From contig NZ_FVZL01000002.1 in assembly GCF_900168295.1 (NCBI RefSeq), forward strand, positions 310,001 to 374,000: 64,000 nt of DNA. Direction: 5' to 3'. The notes beneath the pieces were generated by a model. The model did not search any database, had not been told where the DNA came from, and saw nothing but the letters and a program-made list of their open reading frames with translations. Source of the DNA: Arthrobacter sp. P2b (GTDB lineage: Bacteria > Actinomycetota > Actinomycetes > Actinomycetales > Micrococcaceae). The number at the start of each line of letters is the position of its first letter. The stretch's first letter is position 1. This document shows positions 38,507 to 38,645 of this stretch, piece after piece. The translations under genes were made by a program, and so were the position numbers.

Positions 38507-38533
38507 CTAACTAAGCAGAAGGATCGCACGCAT
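38507..38533 (-). CDS. leuS leader peptide, MRAILLLS
   Basis: This 8-residue ORF has three consecutive Leu codons (CTT CTG CTT) just before Ser and stop. A TANNNT hexamer (TAAAGT, 38545-38540) ends six bases before its ATG, which suggests a leaderless transcript starting at or next to the ATG. GCCGC right after the stop can pair with GCGGC just ahead of the terminator stem, so ribosome position could switch folding. The start and Leu run closely resemble the leuA leader (MRAELLLL). Confidence 0.82.
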   Translation of the reverse strand: MRAILLLS

Positions 38534-38645
38534 GGAACTACTTTAGCGCACCGAAGCATCGCGGTGCCGCCGCATGCGCGGCCCTGTCCGGCGCGGCAGC
38601 GCAGGAATACACTGGGGTCCGCGAGGCAACAACTGATCCGGACCG

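Follow-up and report, generated by a model that had tools for sequence, protein, structure and literature searches.

Attenuators are the textbook case of overlapping, mutually exclusive hairpins, and translation of the E. coli attenuator leaders starts by way of a Shine-Dalgarno sequence. For actinobacteria, a LEU element of leuA was described in 2005 (Seliverstov et al., PMC1262725), and a conserved pseudoknot within it is in print. The part of that paper available to us also relates that leader mutations in S. coelicolor leuA are inconsistent with classical attenuation, and that codon changes in the S. coelicolor ilvB leader are without effect. In S. lividans, start mapping found the leaders of both leuA (LeuL1, MRFGLLLLSCRGEGL) and leuS (LeuL2, MRAVRLLLSEPR) to be leaderless (PMC8079986). 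According to the accessible portion of that account, the leucine run is followed by Ser, and a terminator is present at leuS with no typical one at leuA. The same genes carry leaders of this kind in the window, by which we mean the whole 64,000-base stretch of Arthrobacter sp. P2b DNA analyzed here, and the window resembles S. lividans in these respects, with leaderless starts that are predicted.

Leader reading frames and their start sites

Both leaders had been recognized in a first-pass annotation, whose coordinates for them are exact and whose observation we confirm. On the minus strand, as are all features below unless noted, leuA (2-isopropylmalate synthase, 10863–12602, start ATG 12602 read by eye) and leuS (leucyl-tRNA synthetase, 35829–38357, start GTG 38357 from Shine-Dalgarno and frame) both score above the NCBIfam cut-off. 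The predicted leaderless leuA leader (12682–12738), which lies in a region conserved in the genus, begins GTG CGT GCA GAG CTC CTT CTC CTT AGC and encodes MRAELLLLSCRGEASDAI before its stop; its leucine run, CTC CTT CTC CTT, occupies 12715–12726. The leuS leader (38507–38533), likewise predicted to be leaderless and conserved in the genus as a 23-base pattern, is only eight codons long (ATG CGT GCG ATC CTT CTG CTT AGT TAG, MRAILLLS), with the run CTT CTG CTT at 38513–38521. Both thus place a short ORF with a run of cognate codons before the gene, as attenuators do.

The block of 13 bases with one mismatch previously reported between the two leaders is indeed present, with TCCTTCTCCTTAG (12713–12725) on the leuA side and TCCTTCTGCTTAG (38511–38523) on the leuS side agreeing at 12 of 13 positions. 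Within the 4.89-Mb genome, the pattern TCCTTCTSCTTAG matches exactly at these two sites only, one per leader, and its reversed-pattern control gave 0 matches. A TANNNT hexamer ending exactly six bases 5′ of the start, also noted earlier, is found at both leaders, as the -10-like TACCCT (12745–12750) at leuA and TAAAGT (38540–38545) at leuS. Combining these elements as TANNNT-6-RTGCG-N7-YTNCTNCTN gave exactly two exact matches genome-wide, namely both leaders and no third, and 4 one-mismatch sites vs 9 sites within one mismatch in the reversed control. Two leader-like ORFs with imperfect -10 hexamers, MRTSLLLVR on contig C16 and MRTFLLL on contig C21 (each near 1500), are such one-mismatch sites, and were rejected as further leaders since they do not rise above that control.

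In terms of transcription start, no sigma-70-type -35/-10 pair was found across 38380–38660. The putative promoter of each leader shares its intergenic region with a divergent plus-strand gene, encoding a PepO-like peptidase at leuA (12854–14806) and a PEP-synthase-like protein at leuS (38646–40937), both below NCBIfam cut-offs. Among related loci, 66 of 69 of the leuS type have a TANNNT 6 or 7 bases 5′ of the start, the exceptions being three ilvB loci, as do 40 of 68 of the leuA type. The script behind these counts prefers starts that have the hexamer; when exactly six bases were required, the count was 46/70. The literature searched held no transcript-start mapping for the genus of this strain. 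The leaderless layout suggested by the first-pass annotation nonetheless gains support from these counts together with the S. lividans start mapping by others cited above (PMC8079986, seen in part), and translation of both window leaders probably begins at the very 5′ end of the messenger.

Distribution and kinship of the leaders

The first-pass annotation had named absence of the shared block from close relatives as a reason to doubt its proposal. The leaders are in fact present there: of 61 genus genomes, 56 contain a 23-base leuS leader pattern at up to 2 mismatches and 60 contain the leuA leader region. A 31-base leuS-leader pattern was also found in 71 records titled Arthrobacter, Pseudarthrobacter, Paenarthrobacter or Micrococcaceae. 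Against plasmids, the leuS leader had no Megablast match, and an Rfam scan of the window returned no family, T-box or other, at gathering score, with four chance-level matches at leuS (E 0.94–3) and none at leuA. Judged from sequence, the presence and conservation of both leaders exceed chance.

Genomes of the taxonomic class were then searched with a covariance model of the leuS leader (R1, from 31 genus loci, including its hairpin P2 and terminator) and a model built from leuA leaders (R2). R1 matches 94 of 394 class genomes in 30 of 137 genera. Of its 95 matches, 70 were examined: 64 lie before leuS (tblastn), 4 before ilvB, one falsely inside leuS, and one is cut off by a contig end. R2 matches at least 175 of the 394 genomes in at least 70 of the 137 genera, and 69 matches examined comprise 54 before leuA, 8 before leuC, 5 before leuB, a false one inside leuA and one cut off. 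An HMM check of 6 of the 17 leuC, leuB and ilvB loci placed 2 leuC and 2 leuB above cut-off, whereas 2 ilvB fragments matched ilvB models under the cut-offs, being cut short. The leuB leaders encode Ile/Val/Phe/Leu mixtures. The proposed dispersed leader class is therefore borne out across the taxonomic class, with leuC, leuB and ilvB members beside leuA and leuS.

Several individual genomes are worth recording. The strain's own ilvB gene has a leader of leuS layout, MTFVTAGTVVVLTKRVAH, that R1 and the front-half model R3 described below both missed. It lies on contig C34, about 340 bases 5′ of the ilvB match and behind TTGACA-17-AAAACT-6-ATG; it contains valine and leucine codons, and its hairpin GCGCGTG/CACGCGC directly abuts a terminator. 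Genomes of one family (f4) have two LEU-type leaders each, one before leuA and one before leuC (L169 and L148 in G272; L177 and L178 in G153), and another genome (G268) has two leuS-like genes, each with a leucine leader and an abutting terminator.

With respect to kinship, the claim that the leuA and leuS leaders form one family holds for the front half and fails for the complete models. The front end that they have in common opens with the hexamer and a six-base gap; RTG CGT follows, then a run of three or four leucine codons, the last of them CTT, and a serine codon. R3, a sequence-only model built from 53 leaders for the leuS front half, picks out the leader at 32 of 65 leuA-type loci, with a single off-target match besides. 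It recovered no leuB leader out of 5 and no ilvB leader out of 5. Within the window R3 matches only leuS (E 2.5e-7) and leuA (E 0.016). Genome-wide, leuA comes fifth at E 0.37, with three non-leader sites scoring better, so that the likeness is suggestive and not significant. As for other genome matches of R3, L246 and L248 were rejected as leaders because they read as LLLDEP-type coding sequence, an ABC-ATPase frame among them, and L244 because it lies opposite a long ORF. Among the complete models, R1 gave no match at E 5 or better in 19 leuA-type loci. R2, searched against the window and 15 leuS and 3 ilvB loci, did not match the window's leuS leader, which by this measure is not a LEU element, and its best match on any leuS leader (L120) was at chance level (E 3.7).

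The likeness of the front halves may instead reflect convergence, in which the two genes, with no common ancestor of their leaders, came separately under selection for a leaderless start, for CTT codons and for a GC-rich hairpin, and we give this about even odds. The poor cross-matches of the full models and the low genome-wide rank of leuA both favor it, as does coding alone: among simulated leaders coding LLLLS and ILLLS, with Leu codon shares from 11 window ORFs and Ser and Ile shares assumed, about 5% of pairs match at 12 of 13 positions. The 13-mer by itself is only weakly evidence of kinship. Convergence accounts less readily for the yield of the front-half model among leuA-type leaders with its single off-target match, and for the similar spacing seen by reading in both front ends, where a GC-rich hairpin arm starts 4–5 bases after the leucine run.

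A further feature shared by both leaders is the choice of leucine codon. CTT is the final leucine codon of 56 of 59 leuS leaders and 50 of 54 leuA leaders (many rows being close relatives, not de-duplicated), and in the stretches of gene sequence retrieved it accounts on average for 0.7% and 1.9% of the leucine codons. The codon is less rare in the strain's own genome: its share among the leucine codons of 11 window ORFs is 14.7%, with 4 of 67 in leuS and 1 of 47 in leuA. This common choice would link the two leaders more strongly than their sequence does and fits a shared tRNA sensor, but is no proof of common descent. The CTT bias could alternatively arise from a demand of pairing instead of tRNA sensing.

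The leuS junction and a possible leucine switch

Directly downstream of its leader ORF, leuS carries a hairpin, P2 (38472–38507), in which GCCGC (38507–38503) pairs with GCGGC (38476–38472), its base beginning at the final base of the leader stop codon. An intrinsic terminator, AGCCCCTC-6-GAGGGGCT followed by TTTGTGTG (38450–38471), comes 0–1 base after P2, giving leuS the terminator between leader ORF and gene that is characteristic of an attenuator. The P2 base GCCGC/GCGGC is invariant in 31/31 genus loci, as are the terminator GCCCCTC/GAGGGGC, its TTTT and its distance of one base from P2, and RNAalifold found no covariation in genus alignments of either leader. Pairs were for this reason counted over 42 distinct class sequences, in which P2 and terminator stems vary by alternative standard pairs, although the stems were first called as perfect pairs and the pairing is partly by construction. 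P2 pairs do vary in other genera. Between leaders the P2 span ranges from 21 to 56 bases, so it is the junction and not the size of the hairpin that stays constant: the linker to the terminator is 0–2 bases in 62 of 65 called leaders (41 with 1, 17 with 0 and 4 with 2) and -1, a one-base overlap, in 2. The one outlier, at 10, is the window locus itself, where the script picked an upper helix and the true linker is 0–1. A tiny ORF, ATGGCAGCACAGATGCCGTAA (MAAQMP, 38398–38378), preceded by GGAGGA, lies between this terminator and leuS and has similar counterparts in several relatives.

Because R1 was built from leaders with the abutting junction, its matches lean toward that arrangement. A sample of order genomes picked by leuS protein alone contained such a leader in 13 of 29; a terminator accompanies 9 of these 13, and the called linker is 1–2 in 7 of the 9. 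Support for the junction independent of R1 amounts to these 7 called cases. Five of the 7 genomes are outside the R1 matches, two having been searched without a match and three not searched.

We next considered how ribosome position would bear on folding, placing the edge of the ribosome 13 bases beyond the codon center, half of the 26-base footprint given in PMC13236596. In 64 leuS-type leaders, mean P2 pairing is 0.98 in the naked RNA. A ribosome on the run's first codon leaves it at 0.82, one on the last codon brings it to 0.01, and one at the stop to 0.00. The terminator is predicted in every ribosome state (means 0.96–0.99), but it is also folded in every state of the E. coli controls, so this equilibrium measure is not diagnostic. 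More informative is pre-pairing of the terminator 5′ arm. With the ribosome stalled, this arm is pre-paired at 0.81–1.0 in the E. coli leu, thr, trp and his attenuators (4/4), against a mean of 0.10 in the leuS-type leaders and values above 0.5 in 0/64; an antiterminator sharing a strand with the terminator is thus not seen at leuS, and nothing holds the terminator arm in the stalled state. With the ribosome at the stop, pre-pairing falls in three of the E. coli attenuators (leu, thr, trp) and stays high in his (0.79). In the leuS-type leaders it then averages 0.36 and exceeds 0.5 in 18 of 64, and it is 0.70 in the window's own leader, which runs against the simple model. If P2 controls the terminator at all, these predictions imply that it would have to act by lying against it.

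We propose, with a probability of roughly 0.6, that both leaders are leucine-starvation switches in which ribosomes stall on the leucine codons, with a steric step at leuS. A ribosome would start on the probably leaderless messenger, and its stalling at the leucine codons would turn the gene on. At leuS, a ribosome supplied with leucine would reach the stop codon and melt P2, allowing the terminator to end transcription. Short of leucine, it would wait at the start of the run and leave P2 intact, and P2, 0–2 bases away, would prevent the terminator stem from forming within RNA polymerase, a steric antitermination by two hairpins without a shared strand. We infer this step by elimination and from the conserved junction. 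As both runs end in CTT, one and the same leucine tRNA would be sensed by both leaders, coupling leucine synthesis to tRNA charging. A broader proposal, toward which the odds are somewhat unfavorable, joins butt-joint antitermination at leuS and ilvB with the same CTT leaderless sensor and a terminator-less output at leuA, leuB and leuC in one dispersed regulon.

For leuA, control of translation would be the likelier output, since no terminator was seen by reading in its leader, which in this point falls short of an attenuator, and since the leader resembles the published LEU element. It has the leucine-run leader and conserved hairpin by which that element is recognized, the arms CCGCGGCGAGG (12709–12699) and CCTCGCTGCGG (12669–12659) forming a LEU-type hairpin (12659–12709) just 3′ of the run. 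For the translation step itself, covariation was found in 0/37 pairs. At 12656–12596, RNAfold predicts a pairing of TTTGTGTTGC with GTAATGCGAA that would mask the start codon of leuA whichever of the modeled ribosome states is assumed; the TTTGTGTTGC strand hardly varies within the genus, too little for covariation to test that pairing.

Classical attenuation at leuS, in which an antiterminator overlaps the terminator and the abutment is incidental, would be in keeping with the label of classical attenuators given to Streptomyces leuS (Seliverstov 2005, PMC1262725) and with the mutually exclusive hairpins proposed for Mtb ilvB1 (PMC13236596), as far as the consulted parts of these papers go, and P2 does form only with the ribosome at the run start or absent. 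We nevertheless consider it unlikely given the contrast with the four E. coli attenuators in stalled-state pre-pairing, and the rarity of overlap among called linkers, where one base is shared in 2 of 65. A different possibility is that both genes are controlled at translation, the leucine run being held in an anti-Shine-Dalgarno stem until a stalled ribosome opens it. For the LEU element a base stem joining the leucine run to the leuA Shine-Dalgarno is in print (PMC1262725, seen in part), and at leuS a 12-base complement of the run with one G-U, AGCAGGAGGATC (38407–38418), lies 3′ of the terminator. By mononucleotide shuffles, 26 of the 31 genus loci, which are related sequences, have this complement at p≤0.05. 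As a general feature it was discarded, since 7 of 59 class-set loci showed it under dinucleotide shuffles, no more than chance would give. Pairing of the run with the Shine-Dalgarno region was likewise rejected at leuS (own mean -9.12 vs cross-genome -9.5 kcal/mol, n=63, some starts mis-called), and at leuA the own pairing is only slightly stronger than the cross-genome one (-10.12 vs -9.39 kcal/mol, median rank 0.60, n=54, again with some mis-called starts). We regard control of this kind at both genes as quite improbable.

The short ORFs might also be no sensors at all but by-products of leaderless promoters near genes, and the 16 of 29 order genomes of the protein-picked sample in which the leuS leader pattern was not matched would agree with this. 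The spread of R1 and R2 matches over so many genera, the codon bias and the conservation of the hairpins make this explanation highly improbable. Our preference stays with stalling on the leucine codons and a steric step at leuS.

Relation to known leaders

The proposed switch shares with the E. coli leu, thr, trp and his attenuators a leader peptide of cognate codons and a ribosome position read by RNA folding 5′ of a terminator, and differs from them in that their stalled state pre-pairs the terminator arm. The Mtb ilvB1NC attenuator (PMC13236596) likewise has a short branched-chain ORF (LVVI), a hairpin and an intrinsic terminator, and three of the four R1-matching ilvB leaders found here carry ILVV or ILVVI. 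It differs, in the portion of that paper available to us, by a 166-base leader and by the exclusive pair of hairpins that its authors propose. The leuA leader is like the LEU element in its leucine run, the hairpin after the run and the lack of a visible terminator; where the accessible text of PMC1262725 lists leuA and one transposase gene, R2 adds leuC and leuB.

If the steric step is correct, an abutting sensor hairpin would be a different and widespread physical way to stop termination. The common codon and leaderless start suggest, in addition, that leucine synthesis and leucyl-tRNA charging could be tied to one signal without a regulatory protein in a high-GC bacterium. The proposed design may also bear on the non-classical behavior of the published Streptomyces leuA leader mutations.

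The closest relatives remain the S. lividans leaders, and peptides identical to the LeuL peptides occur among the loci examined here. Unlike LeuL2 as described in the available part of PMC8079986, the window's leuS leader stops at the base of P2 after its eight codons. The idea of leucine leaders at leuA and leuS is largely published for Streptomyces. Open-access literature listings showed neither leuB or leuC leaders nor abutting hairpins, and the abutment, the CTT bias and the leuB and leuC members, all found here, are absent from that part of the S. lividans account. What may be new relative to these systems is thus a hairpin at leuS and ilvB that abuts the terminator without overlapping it, together with the CTT bias shared by the two types of leader and the extension to leuB and leuC.
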